Origin: Haloarcula pelagica
Lineage (GTDB): Archaea > Halobacteriota > Halobacteria > Halobacteriales > Haloarculaceae
DNA length: 64,000 nucleotides
Direction of reading: 5' to 3'
Assembly: GCF_030127105.1 (NCBI RefSeq)
Contig: NZ_CP126161.1
Coordinates: forward strand, 310,001-374,000
A program made the translations under genes and the position numbers. Position 1 is the stretch's first letter. Each line of letters begins with the position of its first letter. The notes beneath the pieces are model-generated. The model saw nothing but the letters and a program-made list of their open reading frames with translations, did no database searches and was not told where the DNA came from. Positions 44,159 through 57,114 of this stretch are shown here, in pieces.

Positions 44159-47062
44159 TCAGCTATCGGCCGGCACTGCGGCGGGCGAGAGTGAGCCGGT
44201 ACTGACGGTCTGTGAGGTCTGTGGGCCGGTGAGTTCGACCGTCGAGGCCGTCTCGTTCTCGCCGATTACCTGTCCTTCGGTGACCTGGGTCGTTCCCGAA
44301 ACCGGCGTGAGGCTACGGTTCTGGACCGTGATCGCACGGAACCGGTACGGCCCGTCCGCGCGGACACTAACGTTCGTGTGCCCCTCGGCGGGGCCGTACT
44401 CGTCGTAGCCGGTCGTCGAGTACGGGACCGTCGTCTCGAAGTTCCCGCTGTCGTCGGTCTGGACCGTCTGCCGGTAGGTGAACGTCTCGTTGGTCTGAGT
44501 GTTGCGCATCGGGACAGCGACCTGGACGGTCGTGTTGGCCGGACCGGAGCCTTCGATGGTCGCTCCGGGGACGCGCTCGAAGATCTTCGTCCACGTCGGC
44601 GAGTTCCGGTGCATCACGTTGGCGACCTGATCGGGCGTACAGTAGTTCGTCCCGCTGATCGGCGCGGAGGTCTGGTTGGCCCCACAGGTGCCGTTGACCG
44701 GCCGTGCGGGCAGTCCGAGCCCCTGTGCTTCGGTGAGGGTCGCCCGGTTGTGCTCCGAGGACTCGTAGGCCGTGCGGTTACTGGACCCGACGTAGCGGTA
44801 GTGTTCCAGCGCCGAGACACGCTCGCCCGGCACCATCCCGACACCGCCGACCTGTGCGGTCCCGTCCTGCTGGACGTAGTCCCGTGCGGCGCTCATGTTG
44901 GGGAACGTCCGGAGCGGCGTCTCGGCGGGTATCCGGCGGGCCTGGCCGTTCACCGTCGACGCCTCCCAGTCGACGACGATCGGCTGAGGGCTGACCGCGC
45001 TGCCGTGGAACTCGTAGAGCCGGACGACCGTGCTGTTGTAGTAGTCCTGGGTCCGGTAGTTGAAGAAGTAGTTCCCGCTCTCGGCCACGATCGGCCGGTA
45101 GTAGTCGCTCTGGTTGGAGTCCTCGTCGAACTGCGGCGGCGCGAAGAACTTCCCGCCGTAGCCACGACCGGCCTTGACCTGGGTCATCTTCCAGTCGACG
45201 GCGACGTACTGCGTGCGAGCGTCGTCCTCGTCGTACGTTTCGAGGACATCGTTTGCCTCGCTCTCGTTCTGTGCGAGCAGGAAGTTCGCGGCCACGTCGG
45301 TCCCCTGCTGGAACGGGTTGGCGTTCGGGATCCGCTCGGCGCGGGTCGTGATCCAGTGCCCGTAGTCCCACCACGAGAGGACGCCGTAGTCACCGGTCTG
45401 GTAGTCGAAGTCCTCGCGGTTCTTGTAGGTGCCGTAGTAGTCGAGCGACTGCTCGCCCCCGCTGTCGTAGGTGCCGACGGCAGGGGTGTTACCCTCCATC
45501 CACTGGAGGCTGTCGTCCCAGTTCTCGATGCCCTGGCCCGGGCCGGCAGTGCCGCCGTAGTCCATCGGCGTCGGCGCGACGACGAGCAACGGGGCGACGA
45601 CGACCACGAGCAGGGAGACGACCGTCAACACCTCGTAGGGCGCGATGTCGCCGTCACCCGAGAGATCGACCCAGCTGACCAGCCGGCCGATGAGCAGTCC
45701 GGTGATCGCGGCGATCGGGAACACCAGGTAGTAGTCGAACCGGCCCTGCGTGAACGTCGCGGCAAGCAGGAAGACGCCCCAGACCGCGACCAGCAGTTCC
45801 TCGCCGTCGGGGTCGCTCGCGAGGAACTGCTCGGCGACGATCGCGATGACACCGATCGCCGCGATGAAGACCGTCAGCCCGTACCGCGGATAGAGGCTAG
45901 CGGGATCGAGCGGCTGTGCCTCGCCGACGGTGCCCGCGGTCGGGCTGACCGAGAACCCGATGACACGCAGGATGTTGTCGACGAGGAAGTTGAACAGGCC
46001 CGGCGTCGCGACGGACGCGATACCGGCGATGACGCCGATGATGCCGAAGACGGTCACCGGGTAGAGGGTCGCGTCGAGGGACTCCCGCTCGAAGTAGCGA
46101 GCGAGCCACGCCATGAACGCACAGCCACCGGCGACCGCGAAGGCGAGCGCCGGCTGAAGCAGCGAGTGACGGGTCGCGTTGACCGTCAGCGTGTCCATAC
46201 TGGCGAGCGTGAGCACCCCAGTCGTCGCGAGCGCGATCGTGCCGACGATCGCGGTGTGTTCCGGGCTCTGGCCGCGGACGAACTCGATGATGAGACGCAG
46301 GAGGAAGAAGGTCCCCAGAATACCGACGATGAGGACGCCGGGCGGCCAGGTCCAGAGATAGGTCGCGATCGCGAATCCGGTGAGCACCGACCAGAGGACC
46401 GTCGAGCGGAGGGCGTCGATGTCGCGGTCGGCGAACTGCTCGAACACCGGCTTGTCACGGTCGGCGGCACTGATCGCGACCATCATCCCGAGGACGGCGA
46501 TCGTCTGGAGGAACGCCTCGGCGACGTGGTGGTCGAAGGTGCCAACGAGACTCCGGCCGAGGAACGCACCGGCGGAGAGCGCCAGGACGAGGGCGGCTGT
46601 CACACCGCCCAGCCGGCCGGCCAGGCGCCGTCCCATCACGTACATCGGGATCATCGCGAGCGTCCCGATGACTGCTGGGAAGAACAGCGCCACCATCGCG
46701 ATGGTGTTCTCGCTGGGCGAGCCCAGGCCGACGATCAGTGCGATCGTCGCGGCCACCTGATCGAACAGCGTGCCGAACTGCCCCGGTGACGCGCCGATCG
46801 GGAAGCGAGTCCAGGGATCGAACGGCATCGTCGCCGGCCAGTTCTGGACCGTATACACCGTCGACCGGTAGTGGTACCAGGGGTCGTTGCCCGAGAACAG
46901 CACTTCGCCGTCGACGATGAAGTTCTGCCAGCTACGCACACGATTCCACAGCATGAACCCGAAAAGCGCCAAGAGGACAGGGACGTGGTACCACCGCTCG
47001 ACCTTGTCCAGGGCAGCCTCGAGTTCGGGGTTATCCTCGAATTGGCCCCGCCATTGACTCAT
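44159..47062 (-). CDS. aglB: Oligosaccharyltransferase AglB (STT3 family)
   Basis: The 967-residue enzyme transfers lipid-linked glycans onto Asn of N-x-S/T sites on the outer face of the membrane, above all on the S-layer glycoprotein. The start is ATG 47062. Thirteen or so membrane helices fill the first half; GNDPWYHYR and the HHVAEAF loop carry the acidic/His motifs of the catalytic site. The soluble second half has the hallmark WWDYG at 564-568. The C-terminal 250 residues are beta-rich with Thr-rich repeats. It is divergent from the aglG-like gene (94 bases), and a cataag element suits a leaderless start. Confidence 0.95.
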   Translation of the reverse strand: MSQWRGQFEDNPELEAALDKVERWYHVPVLLALFGFMLWNRVRSWQNFIVDGEVLFSGNDPWYHYRSTVYTVQNWPATMPFDPWTRFPIGASPGQFGTLFDQVAATIALIVGLGSPSENTIAMVALFFPAVIGTLAMIPMYVMGRRLAGRLGGVTAALVLALSAGAFLGRSLVGTFDHHVAEAFLQTIAVLGMMVAISAADRDKPVFEQFADRDIDALRSTVLWSVLTGFAIATYLWTWPPGVLIVGILGTFFLLRLIIEFVRGQSPEHTAIVGTIALATTGVLTLASMDTLTVNATRHSLLQPALAFAVAGGCAFMAWLARYFERESLDATLYPVTVFGIIGVIAGIASVATPGLFNFLVDNILRVIGFSVSPTAGTVGEAQPLDPASLYPRYGLTVFIAAIGVIAIVAEQFLASDPDGEELLVAVWGVFLLAATFTQGRFDYYLVFPIAAITGLLIGRLVSWVDLSGDGDIAPYEVLTVVSLLVVVVAPLLVVAPTPMDYGGTAGPGQGIENWDDSLQWMEGNTPAVGTYDSGGEQSLDYYGTYKNREDFDYQTGDYGVLSWWDYGHWITTRAERIPNANPFQQGTDVAANFLLAQNESEANDVLETYDEDDARTQYVAVDWKMTQVKAGRGYGGKFFAPPQFDEDSNQSDYYRPIVAESGNYFFNYRTQDYYNSTVVRLYEFHGSAVSPQPIVVDWEASTVNGQARRIPAETPLRTFPNMSAARDYVQQDGTAQVGGVGMVPGERVSALEHYRYVGSSNRTAYESSEHNRATLTEAQGLGLPARPVNGTCGANQTSAPISGTNYCTPDQVANVMHRNSPTWTKIFERVPGATIEGSGPANTTVQVAVPMRNTQTNETFTYRQTVQTDDSGNFETTVPYSTTGYDEYGPAEGHTNVSVRADGPYRFRAITVQNRSLTPVSGTTQVTEGQVIGENETASTVELTGPQTSQTVSTGSLSPAAVPADS

Positions 47063-47135
47063 TGGACGGAAAGACTGGCATGGCGCGCATAAGCCTTTTG
47101 ACCTCCGCCGAAGCGGGATGGAAACGCCTAAAACG

Positions 47136-47152
47136 GCAGGTGGCACACCTGC
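47136..47152. promoter_or_regulatory. 17-base palindrome before aglG-like gene
   Basis: GCAGGTG-GCA-CACCTGC, 7-base perfect arms, ends 4 bases before the ATG at 47157. A TATA-like cctaaaa (47127-47133) lies about 27 bases before the ATG, so the transcript is probably leaderless and the palindrome sits between TATA box and start point, where a repressor could act. Confidence 0.55.
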
Positions 47153-47156
47153 GGGC

Positions 47157-48092
47157 ATGCGCGTCTCGGTCGTCGTCTGTACGCACGCGATGGACCGGTA
47201 CACTGACTGTTACGAGGCCGCCCGGAGCGTGCTCGACCAGACCCACGACGATGTCGAACTCGTGTTGGTCTCGGACGGCGACGAGGCCGTCGCCGACCGG
47301 TTCCGGGCCGACTTCGGCGACCGAGCGGACGTTCGGATCCACTGCAACGACGAGAACGTCGGGCTGGCGGTCAGCCGCAACAACGGCGCGGCGGTCGCGA
47401 CGGGTGACGTAGTCGCGTTCCTCGACGACGACGCCATCGCCGATCCGTCGTGGGTGGCCGAACTCGTCGCCGTCTACGAACAGCGGGACGTGCCCGCCGC
47501 CGGCGGTCGGATGGTCCCGGCGTGGGTCGCCGGCCGGCCGTCCTTTCTCCCCGACGAGTTCTACTGGCTGATCGGTGTCACCCACCGTGGGTTCGGTCCC
47601 GACGGCGACCCCGAACAGGCGGGCGAAGTCCGCAACACGTTCGGCTCGAACATCTCCTTCCGGATGGACGTGTTCGAGGCCCTGGACGGGTTCGAGAAGG
47701 AGATCGGCGGCCGGACCGGGGACAAGAACCTCCAGGGCGAGGAGACGGAACTGTGTGCCCGGATGCAAAGCGAGTACGGCCACGGCGTCTACTACACACC
47801 CGCGGCCGTCGTCGCCCACAAGGTCTTCGACTACCGCACGGACCCGGGGTGGCTCGTCGACCGGGCGTTCTGGCAAGGCTACTCGAAACGCGGGATGGAG
47901 GTCCTCGTCCCGGAGTCGACCGGCGACGAATCGGATTTCCTCTCGTCGTTGCTGTTCGAGTCGGTCCCCGACAGACTGGACGGCGTGGTCACGTCCCCCT
48001 CTCTGGCCGGCGTCTTGCAACTCATCTTCCTGTTCGTGCTGACGGCCGCCGTCGGCGCGGGCTATCTCTACGGGGCGACGGTGTGGAGGTAA
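47157..48092 (+). CDS. aglG: AglG-like glycosyltransferase (GT2) with C-terminal helix
   Basis: The 311 residues start at ATG 47157. The GT2 fold has SVVVCTHAMDRYTDCYEA, the nucleotide-binding VSDGDE and the DXD-type motif FLDDDAIADPSW; GRTGDKNLQGEETELC holds the catalytic-base region. One or two helices at the C-terminus (LQLIFLFVLTAAVGAGYL) anchor it. In Haloferax volcanii AglG, about 313 residues and encoded beside aglB, adds the second sugar (a hexuronic acid) to the dolichol-linked glycan. The same size and neighbours support this assignment; the sugar is not proven here. Confidence 0.82.
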   Translation: MRVSVVVCTHAMDRYTDCYEAARSVLDQTHDDVELVLVSDGDEAVADRFRADFGDRADVRIHCNDENVGLAVSRNNGAAVATGDVVAFLDDDAIADPSWVAELVAVYEQRDVPAAGGRMVPAWVAGRPSFLPDEFYWLIGVTHRGFGPDGDPEQAGEVRNTFGSNISFRMDVFEALDGFEKEIGGRTGDKNLQGEETELCARMQSEYGHGVYYTPAAVVAHKVFDYRTDPGWLVDRAFWQGYSKRGMEVLVPESTGDESDFLSSLLFESVPDRLDGVVTSPSLAGVLQLIFLFVLTAAVGAGYLYGATVWR

Positions 48093-48095
48093 CCG

Positions 48096-49235
48096 ATGAC
48101 CGACGAGCTGCCGAACGTCTGTGTCGTCACGCATCCGCTGGCGGCCGCCGGCGAGAACGCCACCCGGAGTCTGCTCGACATCCTCGCCGCGATCACCGGT
48201 GTCGCGCTCGTGACAGCGGATCTCCCGGCGGACTCGGAGATCAGAGAGCGCCGCGAGCTCGTCGAACTCACGCAGAAGGGCGCCGGCGACTCCGTGGTCG
48301 TGGCCGCCGTTCGATTCCTCCTGAACCAACTGCGGATGTGTCGCGTGCTGGCCGACCGCGACGAGGAGGTGGTGCTGTTCTACGGCGCCACGTCGTACGT
48401 GCTCCCGATCCTGGCCGCGCGACTGCTTGGCAAGACGGTCCTCGTCGAGCCACGCGGGGACGTGCCGCTGACGCTCCGACTGACCTGGGAACAGCGGATG
48501 CCGGCGCCGCTGGCCCGGACACTCGCCGGCGCCGTCGGACTGCTCGAACGAACGGGCTTCGCGCTGGCAGACGGCGTCGTCACCTACACGCCCGAGATGG
48601 CCAGACAGCTCGACCTCCATCCCGAAGCACCGACCGTCTATCCCACCGGAGCGCGCTACGTCCGGACCGACGAGTTCGACATCGAGACGCCGTACGCCGA
48701 CCGCGAGCGCGTGGTCGGCTTCCTCGGCCGGCTCGACGAGGAGAAGGGAATCCGCGAACTGGCCGAGGTAGCGCGCTCGCTCCCGGAGGACGTGACCTTC
48801 CGGTTCATCGGCGACGGCGACCTCCGGGCGTGGCTCGAAGCCGAACTCACGGCGGAGATCGCAGCCGGTCGGGTGGAACTGACCGGCTGGGTCGACCACG
48901 ACGACGTGCCCGAGCAGTTGAACGAGCTCTCCCTGCTCGTGTTGCCCTCACAGCCGACGGAGGGACTGCCGACGACCATCCTGGAGGCGCTTTCCTGTGG
49001 GACCCCGGTACTGGCGTCGCCGGTCTCGGGGGTTCCGGACGTTGTTCGGGACGGCGAGACCGGCTTCCTCGTCGAGTCCCGCGAGCCCGCGGCACTCAGA
49101 GACGAGATAGCGGCGATACTGGCACGTGACGACCTCGCGGAGTTCAGTGATCGGGGGAGAGCACTGATCGAGACTGAGTACAGTTTCGAGGCGGCCTGTG
49201 AGCGGTACCGGTCGATCCTGCGGGCCGCCGGGTAG
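48096..49235 (+). CDS. Glycosyltransferase family 4
   Basis: The 379 residues form a GT-B enzyme: an N-terminal Rossmann half with CVVTHPLAAAGENATRS, and a C-terminal half with VGFLGRLDEEKGIRELAEVA, LTGWVDHDDVPEQLNELSLLVLPSQPTEGLPTTILEALSCGTPVLASPVSG, the typical acceptor/nucleotide-sugar binding Ex7E segment. It starts 4 bases after the aglG-like gene and so is co-transcribed. It should extend the lipid-linked glycan; donor and linkage cannot be read. Confidence 0.88.
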   Translation: MTDELPNVCVVTHPLAAAGENATRSLLDILAAITGVALVTADLPADSEIRERRELVELTQKGAGDSVVVAAVRFLLNQLRMCRVLADRDEEVVLFYGATSYVLPILAARLLGKTVLVEPRGDVPLTLRLTWEQRMPAPLARTLAGAVGLLERTGFALADGVVTYTPEMARQLDLHPEAPTVYPTGARYVRTDEFDIETPYADRERVVGFLGRLDEEKGIRELAEVARSLPEDVTFRFIGDGDLRAWLEAELTAEIAAGRVELTGWVDHDDVPEQLNELSLLVLPSQPTEGLPTTILEALSCGTPVLASPVSGVPDVVRDGETGFLVESREPAALRDEIAAILARDDLAEFSDRGRALIETEYSFEAACERYRSILRAAG

Positions 49236-49262: not shown

Positions 49263-50612
49263 TTACTCGTTGTACCCCAGCCGGCGGAGCCGCTCTTTGA
49301 CTTCCTCGTTCATGTCCGGGCGCTGGATGTCGTCCCGTTCGGTCGACTTGACGAGCTGTCGGTGGTCGTCGAGATGGCCGCGCAGTTCGGCGACGACATC
49401 GGGGTAGTCGTCGACGACGTTCTCCTGTTCGCCGGGGTCGTCGACGAGGTTGTACAGCTCGTCAGGCGCGTCGGAGTGCTCGATGTAGTTCCACTCCGCG
49501 TTGCGGACGTGGACGTGATCCTCGCCGCTCTCCTCCTCGTAGCTCCCGAAGACGGCGGTGCGGTCCCACTCGCCGTCGAAGACCAGGCGACGGAGGCTCT
49601 CGCCGAAGTAGTTGTCCGGCACCGGCAGGTCGGCGGCGTCGAGCAGCGTCGCGGGCACGTCCGCGAGCCCGACCATCTCGTCGTACTCGCCGGCGTCGTC
49701 CCACCCCTCGACGAACAGCGGGACGTGGGTCTTCACGTCGAGCAGCCGAGCGCCGCCGAAGTAGCCGTGTTCGAGGAAGTGGTCGCCGTGGTCCGCGGTC
49801 AGCGCGAACAGGTAGTCGTCGCCCCACTCCTCCTCGACGGTCTCCATCAGCCGACCGACCTCGGCGTCGTTGAACTTGATCTCGGCGTCGTAGAGGTCGA
49901 TGAACGTCTGGTGTTCCTCCTCGGTGACGTTCTCGGGCTCTTCGAGGAACTTCCGGCGGAGCTGGACCGACTCGCGTTTCGAGACGGGCTCGTCCATGAA
50001 CTCCCGCTGGTACTCCTCGGGCGGCAGGAACGGGTGGTGAACGTCCATGTAGTGGACCCAGACGAAGGAGGGTTCGTCGCCGTTTCGCTCGATGAACTCG
50101 ATAGCGCGGTCGGTCATGTCGTCGGCCGGGAGGTGGTAGTCGCCGACGTTGATCCCCTGGCTGGACTCGACGAAGTCGTACGCTCGCTGGAGGGCGCTCA
50201 GGACGGCACCGTCGAGGTTCGTCTTGGCCCACTTGCGGAGCTTCGAGGTGGCCGACTCGTCCGGTGCCGAGTCGAAGAACTCGTCCCAGCCGCGGTCGTA
50301 GCCGAACTCCCCGGAGACGTAGAGGTTACAGTTGAACCCGCCGGTGTGGAAGCCGGCGTCCTGGAACACTTCCGAGACCAGGGTCTGATCGTCGGAGATC
50401 CGTCGGTGACCCCCGTACATCCCCGTCGTCACGCCGGTGAGGATGCTCGGAAACGAGAAGCGGGTGCCGCCGACGTGGGCGTGGGTGTTCATGAACCGAC
50501 TGCCCTGGCGGGCGTACTCGTCGATGTTGGGCGTCACATCCCGCTCGTAGCCGTGGTAGCCGACGTGGTCCGCACGAAGGGAGTCGATAGTTACGAGAAG
50601 GACCTTATCCAT
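49263..50612 (-). CDS. Sulfatase-fold enzyme with Thr at the nucleophile position
   Basis: The 449 residues start at ATG 50612 (MDKVLLVTIDSLRADH). The fold is alkaline phosphatase/sulfatase: metal site D10, TADHGDHFLEHG and MDVHHPF. True sulfatases have C-x-P-S-R...LTG, whose Cys becomes formylglycine. Here the same 11-residue register reads TRFSFPSILTG, so Thr50 stands at the Cys place and the Arg is Phe. Thr is the nucleophile in phosphodiesterases and phosphotransferases of this superfamily. It ends in RLRRLGYNE. A gttgcgcaac palindrome (50620-50629) lies 7 bases before the ATG. It probably acts on a phospho- or sulfo-modified glycan, but the reaction is open. Confidence 0.8.
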   Translation of the reverse strand: MDKVLLVTIDSLRADHVGYHGYERDVTPNIDEYARQGSRFMNTHAHVGGTRFSFPSILTGVTTGMYGGHRRISDDQTLVSEVFQDAGFHTGGFNCNLYVSGEFGYDRGWDEFFDSAPDESATSKLRKWAKTNLDGAVLSALQRAYDFVESSQGINVGDYHLPADDMTDRAIEFIERNGDEPSFVWVHYMDVHHPFLPPEEYQREFMDEPVSKRESVQLRRKFLEEPENVTEEEHQTFIDLYDAEIKFNDAEVGRLMETVEEEWGDDYLFALTADHGDHFLEHGYFGGARLLDVKTHVPLFVEGWDDAGEYDEMVGLADVPATLLDAADLPVPDNYFGESLRRLVFDGEWDRTAVFGSYEEESGEDHVHVRNAEWNYIEHSDAPDELYNLVDDPGEQENVVDDYPDVVAELRGHLDDHRQLVKSTERDDIQRPDMNEEVKERLRRLGYNE

Positions 50613-50619
50613 AGGCTCG

Positions 50620-50629
50620 GTTGCGCAAC
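50620..50629. promoter_or_regulatory. 10-base palindrome before the sulfatase-like gene
   Basis: GTTGCGCAAC is a perfect palindrome, 7 bases upstream of the ATG at 50612. On the minus strand a gcttaact TATA-like element lies at 50635-50642, about 27 bases before the ATG, so this palindrome, like those of the aglG-like and aglJ genes, falls between TATA box and a leaderless start. Its role is inferred. Confidence 0.4.
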
Positions 50630-50693
50630 TGTCGCAGTTAAGCGTTCTCATACGAACGTGGACTGACGGCCGGCTCAGGCCCGGTACCGGCCG

Positions 50694-52132
50694 TCAGATG
50701 CTGACAGGGAGCAGCCCGGTGACCTTCGTCCGGGCGCGCGTCGAGAGTGCGAGCCAGACGGTGCCGTAGATCGCTGCGCCGAGGGCGACGAGGACGAGCG
50801 TCCCGGGGCGCCCCGCCGGGACCCGGCCGACCACGGGCCAGACTCCGGCTGCCATCGCGAGGCTGGCGAGGAACTGTTTCGCGATCTCGCCGGTCGGAAC
50901 GCTGATCGAGCCCACCAGGCTCCGCAGGACGATGTATCCGCCGACGGTCCGCAACACCGTCGAGATCGCCGTCGCGACCGCGGCGCCGTACCAGCCGACG
51001 CGCCACACGAGGACGACGTTCAACACGGCGTTGACGGCGACGAACACGATGTTGACGCGGAAGGCGGCGTCGGGGCGGTCGATGGCGTTGATGACGTTCA
51101 TCAGCTGGGAGGCGTAGACATCCGCCAGGTAGGCCGTGATGAGGATGAGCAAGATTCCGGTCCCCTGGCCGAACTCCGGGCGGTAGAACCGGAGGATGCG
51201 CTCGCCCAGCACGAGCGCACCGAACAGGCCGGGGATGACGAACACGCCGCTGAACGCGAGCGCCTCGTCGAGGTAGTGGCGGATCTGGTCGAACTGCTCG
51301 GAGCCGCTGATGTCGCTGACCTCCGGAAACAACGTCTTGCTGATCGAGGCGCTGGCCATCGCCAGCATCGACGCGATCCCCCACGCGGCCTCGTAGATCC
51401 CGATGAGCGACGCGCCGACGAAAAACGAGAGGACGATCGTATCCAGCCAGCCGAACACCCGGCCACGGAGCGCCCCTACCCACGCGAACTTCGCGTAGTC
51501 GAGCATGCTCCGGAGTTGGGCGAGACTCGGCAGTGACGGGCGTACGTCGCTGAGCAGGATAGCCGCGAGCGCCGCCAGCACGAGCGAGCCCGCGTGTCCG
51601 AGTGTGATCCCGGCGACTCGAAAGCCCACGTAGAGGACCGCGACCTGGATCACCGTGCGGCCGACCCGTTCGGCCGCCTGGACGCCGCCGCCGAAGGCGA
51701 CGCGCTTTTGCCCTTCGAGGAGGCGACGGCGCTCCGGTAGGCCACGGCGCCGACGAACAGCGCCGCGATCTCAGCGTCGTAGGTGATGAGCACCCGCATT
51801 ATCTCCCGGTTCCGTGAGACGATACCGCCCAGGGCGTCGCCGGCGACGAGGACGACGGCGGCGCCGACCGCGGCGACGGCGGTGTTCAGCGCGAGGCCGC
51901 CGCCGAGAAAGCCCGCGGGGTCCTCGCCCTCGCTCATCCGCTTTTTCATCGCGTTGGCGACTGCGTTGGCCGGGATGACGAGCCAGAAGAAGCCAAGCGA
52001 GAGCGCGACGGCGTACTGGCCGAGCCCGCTGGGGCCGAGAAAGAGGGCGATCAGGAACGTCGCCGCGAAGCCCGAGAGGGTGATGACGACCTGCGAGCCG
52101 AAGTGGAGAGCGGCGGTCTTTCCGAGCTTCAT
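50694..52132 (-). pseudogene. Oligosaccharide flippase (Wzx/AglR-type), interrupted by a -1 frameshift
   Basis: Two adjacent frames make one polysaccharide flippase of about 480 residues. The 5' part (52132-51650, 160 aa) begins MKLGKTAALHFGSQVV and carries the first helices up to FVGAVAYRSAVAS. Then the frame must change: read one base earlier, the sequence continues LEGQKRVAFGGGVQAAERVGRTVIQVAV, the expected cytosolic loop, into the 3' part. The 3' part alone could start at GTG 51653, overlapping the TGA of the 5' part (GTGA). One base is missing near 51715-51725 (gcctcctcgaag). Flippases of this type carry dolichol-linked glycans across the membrane. It follows the sulfatase-like gene at 52137 by 4 bases. 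Sequencing error, true mutation, or coupled two-part translation are all possible. Confidence 0.82.
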
Positions 52133-52136
52133 CCCG

Positions 52137-53513
52137 TCAGATGTACCCCAGGTCCCGGAGCTGATCCTGTACCTCGTCGGAGAACTCTCCCGTCTCGGCC
52201 TCCGTGTCGGGCTGGCCGTGGACCGCGAGCCAGTCGTCGAGGGCCGCCGAGAGCGACGCGAGCGTCTCCGGCTGGGCGTCGGCAACGTCGGTCTCCTCGT
52301 CGGGGAGTTCGAACAGTTCGGGGTCGTCGTCGCTGGTCAGCAGCTTGTGCTCTTTCGTCCGGAGCGCCGTCAGCAGCCCGCTGTGGAACTGGGAGGTGTC
52401 GAAGTCCGGATCGTGTTCGAGGATGGCGTCGTAGCCGACCGACACTCGCTGGGAGACGGCGAACTCGCGGACCTCCTCCCGGAGGTCGACGCCCATCGTG
52501 TCCTCGTGGTCGGCGTCGGCCATCGCGAGCAGCGTCGCCATCACGTCGGCGTGCTGGACGAGGTCGTCGGGACCGGCCGCGAGGTCGCCGATGCCGTCGA
52601 TGACCAGCGGGACCCGCGTGACCGCGTCGTCGAGGACGTACCGGTGGGCCAGGAGCCCGGCCTCACCGAACAGTTCCCCGTGGTCGGCGGTGACGACGAC
52701 GATGGGGTCGTCCATCGGGAGCGAATCGATGTACGACAGGAGCCGCCGCACCATGTCGTCCGTGTAGGCGATCTCCGCGTCGTACATCGCGTGCAGCGCC
52801 CGCCACTCCTCGTCGGTGAGGTTACAGCCGTCCGCGATGATCTCCGCGAAGTCGTAGTGGATCTCCAGGGCGCGCTCGGCGGCGGCCTTGGGCGACATCG
52901 AGAGCCCGTCGGTGTACCGGTCCAGGTACGGCTTCGGCGGGTAGTAGGGGCGGTGGGGCTCGTTGTAGTGGAGATAGAAGAAAAAGGGCTCCTGGCTGGC
53001 GAAGTCGTCGAGCCAGTCCTTGGCGACCTCGTTCATCAGGAACGGCGAGGCGTGTTTTGCGGTGTCGAGGGTCAGGCCCGCCGAGTGCGAGCGGATGTTC
53101 AGCAGGTAGCGCAACAGCGTGCCGACGCCGGCCTCGTAGACGTTGGAGGCGGCGAGCCACTGGAACCGGTCGAAGCCGCGGTCGAGCCCCGTCTCGGGGC
53201 TGACGTAGGAGTTCCGCGAGAGGCAGGCGGTCGTGTATCCCGCGTCAGAGAACCGCTCGGCGATAGTGCGGACCCCGTCCGGGAGGACGTTGCCGTCGAT
53301 CCCGAGCGTGTTCCGGGACGGCGTGTAGCCGGTCAGCATCGCGCCACTGGAGGGCAGTGTCGACTTGCTGTGGGCGATGCACTCGGTGAACTGGTGGCCC
53401 CGACGGCCGATATCGGCCATCGTCGGGGTCGTGTCCCGCTCGTAGCCGTCCATAGAGGTGTGATCGGAGCGGACGCTGTCGAGCGTGATCCAGACGATAT
53501 TCTTGCGAGACAT
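52137..53513 (-). CDS. Sulfatase-fold enzyme, Thr at the nucleophile position
   Basis: The 458 residues begin MSRKNIVWITLDSVRSDHTS (metal-binding Asp12). The nucleophile segment reads TLPSSGAMLTG, with Thr52 in the Cys/formylglycine place and Ser in place of the Arg; other metal-site segments are VTADHGELFGEAGLL and YLHYNEPHRPYYPP. It is 4 bases before the flippase gene on the same strand, so they are co-transcribed. It ends in QLRDLGYI. An inverted pair TTTCGG/CCGAAA (53549-53554, 53568-53573) lies in the divergent gap to the gene at 53610. Confidence 0.8.
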   Translation of the reverse strand: MSRKNIVWITLDSVRSDHTSMDGYERDTTPTMADIGRRGHQFTECIAHSKSTLPSSGAMLTGYTPSRNTLGIDGNVLPDGVRTIAERFSDAGYTTACLSRNSYVSPETGLDRGFDRFQWLAASNVYEAGVGTLLRYLLNIRSHSAGLTLDTAKHASPFLMNEVAKDWLDDFASQEPFFFYLHYNEPHRPYYPPKPYLDRYTDGLSMSPKAAAERALEIHYDFAEIIADGCNLTDEEWRALHAMYDAEIAYTDDMVRRLLSYIDSLPMDDPIVVVTADHGELFGEAGLLAHRYVLDDAVTRVPLVIDGIGDLAAGPDDLVQHADVMATLLAMADADHEDTMGVDLREEVREFAVSQRVSVGYDAILEHDPDFDTSQFHSGLLTALRTKEHKLLTSDDDPELFELPDEETDVADAQPETLASLSAALDDWLAVHGQPDTEAETGEFSDEVQDQLRDLGYI

Positions 53514-53609
53514 ACCCTGTTACGTAGCGTTCATCCCGCCGACTGTCTTTTCGGTTCCGGTTCGTCTCCGAAAGAGATTAATTCGCCCGCGGTGCCTTTC
53601 AACCTACCA

Positions 53610-54584
53610 ATGGTGCTAGTCGTGCTGGGGATCGACGCCCTCGATCCGGAACTCGTCGACGAGGACCGCCATCCGCATCTCACCCTGTCGGCGCACCACG
53701 CCATCGAGACGATCGACTCCGTCGAGGGCGAACCCAGTACGCACGAACTCTGGCCGACTATCATCACCGGGCTCACGCCCGCCGAACACGGCCTCGAACT
53801 CGACGACGGCGTCTCCTGGGACAACCCGCTGTTGAACCTCGGGAGCACCGTCGCCGACTACCTGCTTCCGGGCGGCCTCCAGACCCGCCTGGGCGCCTGG
53901 TTGCTGACCAACACGAGCGAGGACGCCTTCCGGGAGCGGGCGAGCTACTACGCCGACAACGGCCTCACCACCGTCTTCGACGGCCGGGAAGCCAAGCCCA
54001 TCGGCGTCCCGAACTACGTCGTCGACCCCGACTCCGAGGACCGCGAGCACAACCTCCGACGGAACCTCGGTGACCTCTTCGAACGCGACCCCGACGCCAC
54101 GGGCGGACACACCTCCTCGGACCCGGCGGCGTTCTACGAGGAGTGTCTGGAGATGTCGATGGTCCGCATCGCCCGCGCTCGGCGGGGACTCCGGGGCAAA
54201 CGTCACGAACTCGTCTTCGCGTACACGAGCGGCCTCGACCTCGTCGGCCACATCGCCCACAGCCAGCCCGCGATGCAGGAGCGCGCGTACGAAGAACTGG
54301 ACGAGTTCGTCGGCGAACTCCTCGCGGACCTGGACGAGGACGACGAACTCCTCCTCGTCAGCGACCACGGCCTCCAGGAGGGGGTACACACCCACGAGGC
54401 GATGGTCGCGGCCACGGACGAGCGACTCGTCGCGGACATCGAGTCGGTCACCGACGTGCGGGCCGCGATCGACGCCGAACTCGACGCCCACGACCACTCG
54501 CCGTCGCCGCGGGACGACACCGCCGACGTGGCCGCGGGCGGCGAGCGCGTCCAGGAGCAACTGGAAGACCTGGGGTACATGTGA
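53610..54584 (+). CDS. Alkaline phosphatase-family phosphodiesterase/phosphatase (NPP-like)
   Basis: The 324 residues start at ATG 53610 (MVLVVLGIDALDPEL, metal Asp9). The nucleophile segment is THELWPTIITG with Thr44, as in nucleotide pyrophosphatase/phosphodiesterases. YTSGLDLVGHIAH and VSDHGLQEGVHTHEAM complete two metal sites. It ends in QLEDLGYM. It is shorter than the three sulfatase-like neighbours and lacks their C-terminal subdomain. The start has a gattaatt TATA-like element about 30 bases before it. Phosphate-diester hydrolysis or phosphotransfer is likely. Confidence 0.82.
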   Translation: MVLVVLGIDALDPELVDEDRHPHLTLSAHHAIETIDSVEGEPSTHELWPTIITGLTPAEHGLELDDGVSWDNPLLNLGSTVADYLLPGGLQTRLGAWLLTNTSEDAFRERASYYADNGLTTVFDGREAKPIGVPNYVVDPDSEDREHNLRRNLGDLFERDPDATGGHTSSDPAAFYEECLEMSMVRIARARRGLRGKRHELVFAYTSGLDLVGHIAHSQPAMQERAYEELDEFVGELLADLDEDDELLLVSDHGLQEGVHTHEAMVAATDERLVADIESVTDVRAAIDAELDAHDHSPSPRDDTADVAAGGERVQEQLEDLGYM

Positions 54585-54609
54585 CAGTCCCCGAGCAGTG
54601 AGTGATACC

Positions 54610-56052
54610 ATGAACGTCCTACTGATCATTCTCGACAGCGTCCGAGCACGGAACCTGAGCCTGTACGGCCACGCGAACGAGACGACGCCCTTCCTCTCGT
54701 CGTTCGCGTCGGACGCGACGGTGTACGAGCAGGCCCGCTCGCCGGGCGCCCGGAGCGTCACGAGCCACACGTCCATCTTCACCGGCCTCCACGTCGAGGA
54801 ACACAACGTCACCGCCGCGAAGTACCGGATCGACCCCGCCCACACCGTCTTCGAGCAGCTCCGCCGGGACGGCTACGCGACCGGCGTGTTCTCGGAGAAC
54901 AACTGGATCACCGACGTGGATGTCGGACTCAGCGAGGGGTTCGACCACGTCGCTGGCGCCCGGAGCGCGATGTTCCCCGAGGCGATGAACCCCGAGTCGT
55001 TCGTCTCGAACCACGGCCGAGGCGCCTACAGCGAGTATCTCAAGGCCGCACTGCGGAGCGAGCAGCCGCTGAAATCCCTCGCAAACGGCGTCAGCACGAA
55101 ACTCTCCTCGGACTACCCGTCCTACACGCCGGAGTTCATGAAGGCGTCGACCCCAGCGACCACCTACATCGACGAGTTCCTGCACTGGCAGGCCGACCGG
55201 ACGGGCGACTGGGCCGCGTGTCTCAATCTCATGGACGCCCACATCCCCTACGAGCCCCGAGGTGAACACGACATCTGGGGTGGGTCGGAGTGTCAGTCCC
55301 TCCACGACTCCTTCCTCGACCACAAGTGGGACTTCGCCTCGGGCCGGCGCCCCTGGTGGCAGAAGAAAGCCGTCGAAGCGCTGTACGACGGCGCCATCCA
55401 CGAGATGGACGCCGCGCTAGAACTGCTGGTCGAGCGGTTGCGCGAGCGTGGCGAACTCGACGACACGCTCCTGGTCGTGACCAGCGACCACGGCGAGGGC
55501 TTCGGCGAACCCAGCTACGTCCGGAATGACATCCGCGTGGCCGAACACGGCGTGTCGATTCACGACGCCGTGCTCCACGTCCCGCTCGTGGTCCGATTCC
55601 CCGGCGAGGGCAGCGGGGAGCGTATCGCCGCGCCGGCGTCGCTGACCGAGTTCCCCCGCGTCGTCGAGGCCGCCCGGACGGGCGAGGCAGACCGCGACGA
55701 GTTCTGCCCAGACGGTCCCGTGATCGCGTCGGCCGTCGGGCTCGACGAACCGCTCCAGGAGCGGGCCGGCCAGTACGTCGACGACCTCTCGCCGTGGCTC
55801 TCGACCTCACGAGCGGTCTTCGAGCCCGCCCCGGACGGCGAAGTCGACAAGTACTGCACCGGTCGTGACGGGTCCGCGACCGTCCGGGTCCGAGACGCAC
55901 AGACTTCCTACCGCACCGCGACGACAGGTGCCGACGAGGTCGAGTCCGCCTTCGCCGACATCGGCGACGCCGGCCTCCGTGAGGAGGGCGACGGCGTCGA
56001 TGCCATCGAGGGCGACACCTATCAGCGGCTCGAAGACCTCGGGTACGTATGA
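54610..56052 (+). CDS. Sulfatase-fold enzyme, Ser at the nucleophile position
   Basis: The 480 residues begin MNVLLIILDSVRARNLSLYG (metal Asp9). In the nucleophile register, SVTSHTSIFTG puts Ser49 in the Cys place; Pro and Arg of the sulfatase signature (C-x-P-S-R) are also missing, so maturation to formylglycine is unlikely. Other sites: LMDAHIPYEP, VTSDHGEGFGEPSYV and AEHGVSIHD. It ends in RLEDLGYV. It lies 25 bases after the phosphodiesterase gene and before aglJ, in one direction. The reaction is not known. Confidence 0.8.
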   Translation: MNVLLIILDSVRARNLSLYGHANETTPFLSSFASDATVYEQARSPGARSVTSHTSIFTGLHVEEHNVTAAKYRIDPAHTVFEQLRRDGYATGVFSENNWITDVDVGLSEGFDHVAGARSAMFPEAMNPESFVSNHGRGAYSEYLKAALRSEQPLKSLANGVSTKLSSDYPSYTPEFMKASTPATTYIDEFLHWQADRTGDWAACLNLMDAHIPYEPRGEHDIWGGSECQSLHDSFLDHKWDFASGRRPWWQKKAVEALYDGAIHEMDAALELLVERLRERGELDDTLLVVTSDHGEGFGEPSYVRNDIRVAEHGVSIHDAVLHVPLVVRFPGEGSGERIAAPASLTEFPRVVEAARTGEADRDEFCPDGPVIASAVGLDEPLQERAGQYVDDLSPWLSTSRAVFEPAPDGEVDKYCTGRDGSATVRVRDAQTSYRTATTGADEVESAFADIGDAGLREEGDGVDAIEGDTYQRLEDLGYV

Positions 56053-56085: not shown

Positions 56086-56098
56086 GTGGAGCCTCCAC
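56086..56098. promoter_or_regulatory. 13-base palindrome before aglJ
   Basis: GTGGAG-C-CTCCAC is a perfect 13-base palindrome, ending two bases before the aglJ ATG. A ggtttttatc TATA-like element at about 56068-56077 lies about 27 bases before the ATG, so the transcript is probably leaderless and the palindrome covers the start-site upstream face. Confidence 0.5.
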
Positions 56099-56100
56099 CA

Positions 56101-57114
56101 ATGGCTGACCGCGACGATGTCTGTGTGCTGTTGCCGGCCTACAACGAGTCGGCGACGATCGAGCCGGTCGTCCGCGGGTTCCGCGAGGAAGGGTTCGAGA
56201 ACGTCCTGGTCATCGACGGCGGGTCCGCCGACGACACCGTCGAACTCGCCGAGGCGGCCGGTGCGCGCGTCGTCCAGCAGTCCGGGAGCGGGAAAGGCCA
56301 GGCCGTGCGTGAGGCGGTCCGCCGGTACGTCGACGCGCCGTACGTCCTGATGGCCGACGCCGACGAGACCTACCGCCCGGACGAGGCCGGGCGGATGCTC
56401 GAACCGCTGTTCGACGGCCGGGCCGAACACGTCATCGGGAACCGCTTTGCCGATATGCGGCCCGGCGCGATGAGCCGGCTCAACCAGACCGGAAACAGCG
56501 TCATCAACTGGGCGTTCTCGGTGATCCACGGTCACCAGTACGTCGACATCCTCTCGGGCTATCGCGCCTTTACCCGCGAGTCGTTCGAACAGCTCTCGCT
56601 GTCCTCGGACGGCTTCGGCATCGAGACGGAGATGGCCGTCGAGTGTGTCAAACACAGCGTCCGGGTGACCGTCGTCCCGATCACCTACGAGCCCCGCCCC
56701 GACGAATCGGAGACGAACCTCCACCCGTTCCGGGACGGCGCGACGATCATCCTCACGCTCTACCGGATGGCGAAGACCAACAACCCGCTGTTTTACTTCG
56801 GGAGCGTCGGCTTCGGGTCGATCGGGCTGGGGATCGTGCTTGGCGCCTACGTCGCCTACGACTGGTTCGTCAACAGCATCTCCCACGAGGTCATCGCGAT
56901 GGTCGGCGGCATCGCCATCGTGTTGGGCCTCCAGTTGCTCATGTTCGGCGTCCTCTCGGACATGATCGTCACGGTCAACCGCGAACAGACCCGGCGGCTC
57001 GAAGACATCGCACGGAAGCTCTCGGAGGAGACACAACCGGCCGAGACGGCCGAATCCGACCGCCAGAGCGACGCGGAGACCGAGGCGGTCGCGCCCGGGG
57101 ACGGCGAGGACTAG
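56101..57114 (+). CDS. aglJ: Dolichol-phosphate glycosyltransferase AglJ
   Basis: The 337 residues start at ATG 56101. The GT2 domain has VCVLLPAYNESATIEPVV, VIDGGSADDT, and LMADADETYRPDEAG as DXD. GYRAFTRESFEQLSLSSDGFGIETEM is typical of dolichol-phosphate glucosyl/mannosyltransferase-like enzymes. Two helices follow (about 230-255 and 263-285), then an acidic tail that makes the protein longer than Haloferax AglJ (about 300). AglJ adds the first sugar to dolichol phosphate in haloarchaeal N-glycosylation. Its place at the far end of the locus from aglB agrees. Confidence 0.9.
   Translation: MADRDDVCVLLPAYNESATIEPVVRGFREEGFENVLVIDGGSADDTVELAEAAGARVVQQSGSGKGQAVREAVRRYVDAPYVLMADADETYRPDEAGRMLEPLFDGRAEHVIGNRFADMRPGAMSRLNQTGNSVINWAFSVIHGHQYVDILSGYRAFTRESFEQLSLSSDGFGIETEMAVECVKHSVRVTVVPITYEPRPDESETNLHPFRDGATIILTLYRMAKTNNPLFYFGSVGFGSIGLGIVLGAYVAYDWFVNSISHEVIAMVGGIAIVLGLQLLMFGVLSDMIVTVNREQTRRLEDIARKLSEETQPAETAESDRQSDAETEAVAPGDGED

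Follow-up and report, generated by a model that had tools for sequence, protein, structure and literature searches.

Gene organization of the locus

The window analyzed in this work is a 64,000-nucleotide stretch of the Haloarcula pelagica genome (contig NZ_CP126161.1, positions 310,001 to 374,000), and it contains an N-glycosylation (agl) locus in which four genes encode enzymes of the alkaline phosphatase (AP) superfamily. These genes, designated S1 to S4, are discussed here as candidates for modification of the N-glycan, with S1, S2, and S4 as possible glycan sulfotransferases and S3 as a possible phospho-type partner. The window is haloarchaeal with a G+C content of 67%, and the closest relatives of its aglJ are found in Haloarcula and Halomicroarcula. 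A first-pass annotation had placed the four genes between the glycosyltransferases and aglJ; all four open reading frames (ORFs) are present at the starts that it gave, and the flanking genes aglB, aglG, and aglJ were identified by profile.

The gene order is aglB, aglG, a GT4 glycosyltransferase gene, S1, a flippase gene, S2, S3, S4, and aglJ. The oligosaccharyltransferase gene aglB (44159..47203, minus strand) matches TIGR04154 with 862 bits as well as PF02516, PF22627, and PF18079. It is followed by two genes on the plus strand, aglG (47118..48092), which encodes a glucosyl-dolichyl phosphate glucuronosyltransferase (NF041394, 484.6 bits with a cut-off of 440), and the GT4 glycosyltransferase gene (48096..49235; PF00534/PF13692). 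S1 (49263..50651; PF00884, 127 bits), the gene for a MurJ/Wzx-type, AglR-like flippase (50694..52132; PF03023), and S2 (52137..53513; PF00884, 133 bits) are all on the minus strand, with anything from a few to about 40 bases between them. S3 (53610..54584; PF01663, 45.8 bits with a cut-off of 23), S4 (54610..56052; PF00884), and aglJ (56086..57114; TIGR04182, 455 bits with a cut-off of 325), which encodes the first N-glycan glycosyltransferase, run in the opposite direction, separated by 25 and 33 bases, and the two groups diverge from 53514-53609. Fourteen PF00884 genes are present in the 4.46 Mb genome and three of them lie within 6.8 kb at this locus. This clustering goes beyond chance, as the Poisson probability of such a triple is ~1.6e-6 and only 0.0025 triples are expected genome-wide. 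The flippase ORF is split over two frames with a break near 51720-51735, which is either a sequencing error or a recent lesion; both frames together match orthologues that are intact in two other loci (L017 and L023).

Active-site residues

The first-pass annotation aligned all four proteins on the sulfatase segment C-x-P-S-R-x5-G and reported Thr50, Thr52, Thr44, and Ser49 at the place of the sulfatase Cys. These residues are exact: S1 has T50 in TRFSFPSILTG, S2 has T52 in TLPSSGAMLTG, S3 has T44 in THELWPTIITG, and S4 has S49 in SVTSHTSIFTG, and none of the four keeps the full C-x-P-S-R. S1, S2, and S4 are sulfatase-like PF00884 proteins that score clearly over the cut-off of this family. 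S3 is not sulfatase-like; it is PF01663 and resembles the nucleotide pyrophosphatases/phosphodiesterases (NPPs).

An alignment of 87 sequences was made from S1, S2, S4, the other sulfatase-like proteins of the genome, and those encoded near aglJ in other haloarchaea; one sequence does not cover the site. The nucleophile place is Thr in 64 and Ser in 22 of the remaining 86 relatives and is never Cys, and Arg at +4 is found in none of them. All of them retain the first metal Asp and the later Asp-His, and the second sulfatase metal Asp is replaced by Ser, Thr, Ala, or Cys in 86/86 relatives, whereas it is Asp in two Cys-type controls. On the family tree (FastTree, where placement is rough) Ser and Thr are exchanged at least three times. 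This interchange, together with the conservation of the site, argues that the Thr/Ser hydroxyl acts directly as the nucleophile in the S1, S2, and S4 family.

Thr cannot yield formylglycine, and many members of PF00884 have been misnamed as sulfatases (PMC5066984). The residues thus support the earlier claim that S1 to S4 are not formylglycine sulfatases. A formylglycine-Ser route for S4 was rejected as there is no Pro or Arg in the motif and Thr takes the place of Ser within its own clade (L126). Many haloarchaeal genes annotated as sulfatases are probably not sulfatases.

S1, S2, and S4 fall in separate clades of the tree, and each clade is also represented in other agl loci (Thr-type orthologues of S1 are in the Haloarcula loci L023 and L024, and the clade of S2 includes L015, L023, and L024), so the three are not recent copies of one another. 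About ten further Thr/Ser-type paralogues are located elsewhere in the genome. Two tandem Cys-type sulfatases with the motif C-S-P-T-R (L001 and L002, G000:C2:138586-142161) lie outside the locus and are the only canonical ones among the PF00884 matches of the genome in which the motif was read. No P-loop sulfotransferase domain is among the Pfam/NCBIfam matches of S1 to S4. No transmembrane (TM) helix or signal is predicted in the four proteins, none of which has a hydrophobic 19-residue window over 1.6.

Predicted folds of S4 and S3

Structure prediction had been proposed as a check on all four enzymes, and models of S4 and S3 were compared with solved structures. The S4 model (mean predicted local distance difference test score, pLDDT, of 85.7) is of a full fold of the S1 sulfatase family (the family name is distinct from the gene S1). 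It matches the sulfatase SpAS2 (4upl) with Z 33.8 over 361 residues at 3.4 A, 6hhm with Z 32.2, and 5g2u (BT1596) with Z 31.0, and the matches to LtaP (Z 29.7) and YejM (Z 29.6) are below those of the best sulfatases. The formylglycine sulfatases SpAS2 and BT1596 share with S4 the whole-length fold (Z 31-34), the first metal Asp, and the Asp-His. They differ from S1, S2, and S4 in that the latter have Thr or Ser in place of Cys-x-Pro-x-Arg, have no second Asp, carry no export signal, and are encoded in a biosynthetic setting. It is quite unlikely that these enzymes are hydrolases, either atypical sulfatases or phosphodiesterases, with a role in removing sulfate or phosphate groups from glycans. 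Membership in PF00884 and a fold close to sulfatases and phosphonate monoester hydrolases would suit such a role, but the Cys/Ser-x-Pro-x-Arg motif is lacking, formylglycine cannot be made from Thr (PMC5066984), none of the 86 relatives keeps the second metal Asp, and proteins with no export signal are encoded amid biosynthetic genes.

S3 is a protein of 324 residues that belongs to PF01663 and not PF00884. The residues D9, T44, D210, H214, D252, H253, and H260 are invariant in 13 sequences, and all of these except T44 form a two-metal ligand set. The S3 model is weak (pLDDT 62) and matches phosphoglycerate mutases (iPGM), NPPs, and alkaline phosphatases alike with Z about 14-15. S3 shares the domain match, the Thr nucleophile, and the two-metal ligands with the NPP and iPGM families, and it differs from them in its short length, lack of a signal, LGY tail, and location inside an agl locus. 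From its domain and metal ligands S3 looks like a phospho-ester-type enzyme, the only such member of the four. In Haloarcula and Halosimplex, S3 shows 70-75% conservation, and a Thr/Ser-type enzyme comes after it in most of the S3 loci of these genera. A glycan cluster on a Halocatena plasmid instead has its S3 homologue beside a Cys-type sulfatase.

NPP, LtaS, and EptA all use Thr as the nucleophile, and the first-pass annotation drew an analogy to lipid-linked transferases of the LtaS/EptA kind. The shared Thr nucleophile and sulfatase-like fold of LtaS, EptA, MCR, and GacH (LtaP has Z 29.7 to S4) agree with this analogy, and it is weakened by the fact that these proteins are membrane-anchored and extracytoplasmic, whereas S1 to S4 have no predicted TM helix or signal. 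The same evidence bears on a transfer of phospho-groups, in which a phospho-Thr/Ser would pass phosphate, phosphoglycerol, or another phosphodiester to the glycan or its carrier. The two-metal set of S3, the fold matches of its weak model, and the good matches of S4 to LtaP and YejM would agree with such a transfer. We know of no phosphate-bearing haloarchaeal N-glycan, however, and this reading is rather doubtful.

Comparison with Agl30 and Agl31

Among AP-superfamily proteins of haloarchaeal aglB clusters, Agl30 and Agl31 are the only ones for which experimental work was found in the literature (PMC11980604). Three AP-superfamily genes are present in the aglB cluster of Halobacterium salinarum: VNG1056C (Agl30), VNG1057C (Agl31), and VNG1063H. 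The native N-glycan was shown to be sulfated by nuclear magnetic resonance, and deleting VNG1056C and VNG1057C lowered the sulfated N-glycan more than 300-fold. When Agl30 or Agl31 was expressed in Haloferax volcanii, each gave a glycan assigned as mono-sulfated, and VNG1063H had no effect on the N-glycan (PMC11980604). Agl7 of Hfx. volcanii contributes to the sulfation of the low-salt glycan. In Haloarcula hispanica the N-glycan contains a sulfonated sugar, whose linkage differs from that of a sulfate ester.

Agl30 and Agl31 resemble S1 to S4 in belonging to the AP superfamily, in being encoded by several genes of the aglB cluster, in having sulfatases as their nearest solved folds (5g2u and 6hhm, which are also fold neighbours of S4; PMC11980604), and in ending in LGY. 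They differ in that Agl30 is membrane-bound, whereas S1 to S4 have no predicted TM helix, and in that the window has an additional PF01663-type member. The AglJ and AglG profile matches fit a glucose-glucuronic acid start like that of the sulfated glycan of Hbt. salinarum, and S2 relatives on haloarchaeal plasmids sit in glycan-assembly clusters. The deletion and expression results for Agl30 and Agl31, the active-site residues with their Ser/Thr exchanges, the glycan start, the plasmid clusters, the LGY ends, the shared fold neighbours, and the lack of TM helices and signals were counted in favor of sulfotransfer. By analogy, S1, S2, and S4 may be glycan sulfotransferases of the Agl30/Agl31 type with S3 as a separate phospho-type partner, a reading to which we assign a probability of about 0.5.

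Several points weigh against this assignment. The comparison of Agl30 and Agl31 with S1 to S4 is limited to description, fold neighbours, and primer-encoded termini, and both LGY and the fold are common to many paralogues. VNG1063H is of the same superfamily and cluster and has no N-glycan effect (PMC11980604). The gain-of-function masses alone do not separate sulfate (79.957) from phosphate (79.966) (PMC11980604), and nothing in the H. pelagica genome itself tells sulfate from phosphate. The donor-making enzymes APS kinase (PF01583), ATP sulfurylase (PF01747), and CysD over its cut-off are also not recognised in the genome.

The first-pass annotation proposed that the set adds, moves, or trims phospho-groups, or another ester, on the glycan or its lipid carrier, in place of desulfation. 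The setting among genes for lipid-linked glycan assembly fits an addition of ester groups to the glycan. The preference for phosphate does not carry over to S1, S2, and S4, as sulfation of the N-glycan depends on Agl30 and Agl31 (PMC11980604), and it is retained for S3 only. Phospho-group transfer is thus a possible but less favored reading for S1, S2, and S4.

It is unlikely that the enzymes act on other surface molecules, such as sulfated archaeal lipids, capsule, or O-glycans, and merely share the locus with N-glycosylation. The paralogues elsewhere in the genome, the result for VNG1063H (PMC11980604), and the S2 relatives in plasmid glycan clusters with no aglB nearby would be consistent with such targets, but the genes are tightly and divergently arranged with the flippase and aglJ. 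Furthermore, the survey of agl loci suggested by the first-pass annotation found S1, S2, S3, and partner enzymes again in the agl loci of other Haloarcula.

The C-terminal LGY tail

All four proteins end in LGY (LGYNE in S1, LGYI in S2, LGYM in S3, and LGYV in S4), as had been reported, and the tail proved to be general to Thr/Ser-type AP-superfamily enzymes rather than particular to this locus. In aglJ neighbourhoods (loci L015-L094 and L126-L145), LGY occurs within the last nine residues of 127/133 AP-superfamily ORFs with 250 or more residues, versus 4/2105 other ORFs; the AP-superfamily ORFs are mutually related, and a Fisher test value therefore overstates their independence. The tail is present in three subfamilies, namely PF00884-like proteins, PF01663-like proteins, and a group of 300-residue proteins termed DACRYD, and it is missing in the Cys-type sulfatases of the same genome and of Halocatena and in one bacterial Thr-type relative. 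From published primers, the C-termini of VNG1056C and VNG1057C are HLEDLGYL and LEELGYT and that of VNG1063H is KELGYIE. The last three residues of the S4 model have low confidence, as would be the case for a free docking peptide.

The DACRYD group carries the motif DWD..(L/V)..DACRYD and is common in agl loci (L018:5022-5846, L023:4418-5287, L045:6597-7460, and others). Its peptide V-H-[FY]-x-Q-P-H resembles a peptide encoded by a VNG1063H primer, and VNG1063H may belong to this group.

The sulfate donor

Adenosine 5'-phosphosulfate (APS) kinase was not recognised in the genome, where the single PF01583 match is a 55-residue P-loop match. ATP sulfurylase of the PF01747 type, CysD over the cut-off, and PF13469 sulfotransferases were not found among the searches made, which did not include PF00685 and PF03567. 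APS kinase, PF01747, and PF13469 are absent from this genome and from nearly all of the 29 haloarchaeal relatives tested, a set that does not include Hbt. salinarum; the Halobacterium-family genomes tested show the same lack, CysD included. The APS kinase matches in most genomes are weak, and those whose sequences were inspected belong to FtsY-like proteins or to a different P-loop kinase. In two genomes of the same genus as the window (G324 and G396), an APS kinase gene is beside genes for P-loop sulfotransferases. Since these enzymes were not recognised, the donor, if sulfate is the group moved, may not be 3'-phosphoadenosine 5'-phosphosulfate (PAPS) made by the usual route. The missing sulfate-activation enzymes also speak for the transfer of phospho-groups.

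On a Paenibacillus plasmid (L173, NZ_CP045296 826000-862000) a Thr-type sulfatase-like gene lies two genes before cysC, which encodes APS kinase. A link to sulfation was rejected, as a sugar ABC importer, oxidoreductases, and other sulfatases fit catabolism better.

Proposed mechanism

S1, S2, and S4 would be AP-fold transferases, probably cytosolic, that put sulfate esters on the uronic-acid-containing glycan linked to dolichol phosphate before it is handled by the flippase and AglB. The dolichol phosphate-linked glycan is suggested as the acceptor by the Hbt. salinarum work. A metal-activated Thr or Ser hydroxyl would take the sulfuryl group from the donor and hand it to a sugar hydroxyl. 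In sulfatases, the gem-diol of formylglycine lets the sulfo-enzyme shed sulfate by elimination. A covalent sulfo-Thr or sulfo-Ser has no gem-diol and would not lose sulfate in this manner, which would favor transfer over hydrolysis. S3 would be a two-metal, phosphodiesterase-like partner that is encoded with S4 and perhaps acts on the donor, on a by-product, or in a separate phospho-step, although this role is a guess.

Implications

The first description of AP-fold N-glycan sulfotransferases dates from 2025 and covers a single species, with no mention of an active site or sulfate donor (PMC11980604). The window and its relatives raise a puzzle, as the usual genes for sulfate activation and P-loop sulfotransferases are missing in nearly all of the genomes checked. 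A tentative and rather doubtful extension is that haloarchaea sulfate glycans, and perhaps lipids, through a large family of AP-fold transferases that form a sulfo-enzyme on Thr or Ser, use a donor other than PAPS from the usual enzymes, and are recruited to a common partner by the diagnostic LGY tail. The window and its relatives also supply a testable nucleophile, the Thr or Ser located where sulfatases have Cys.

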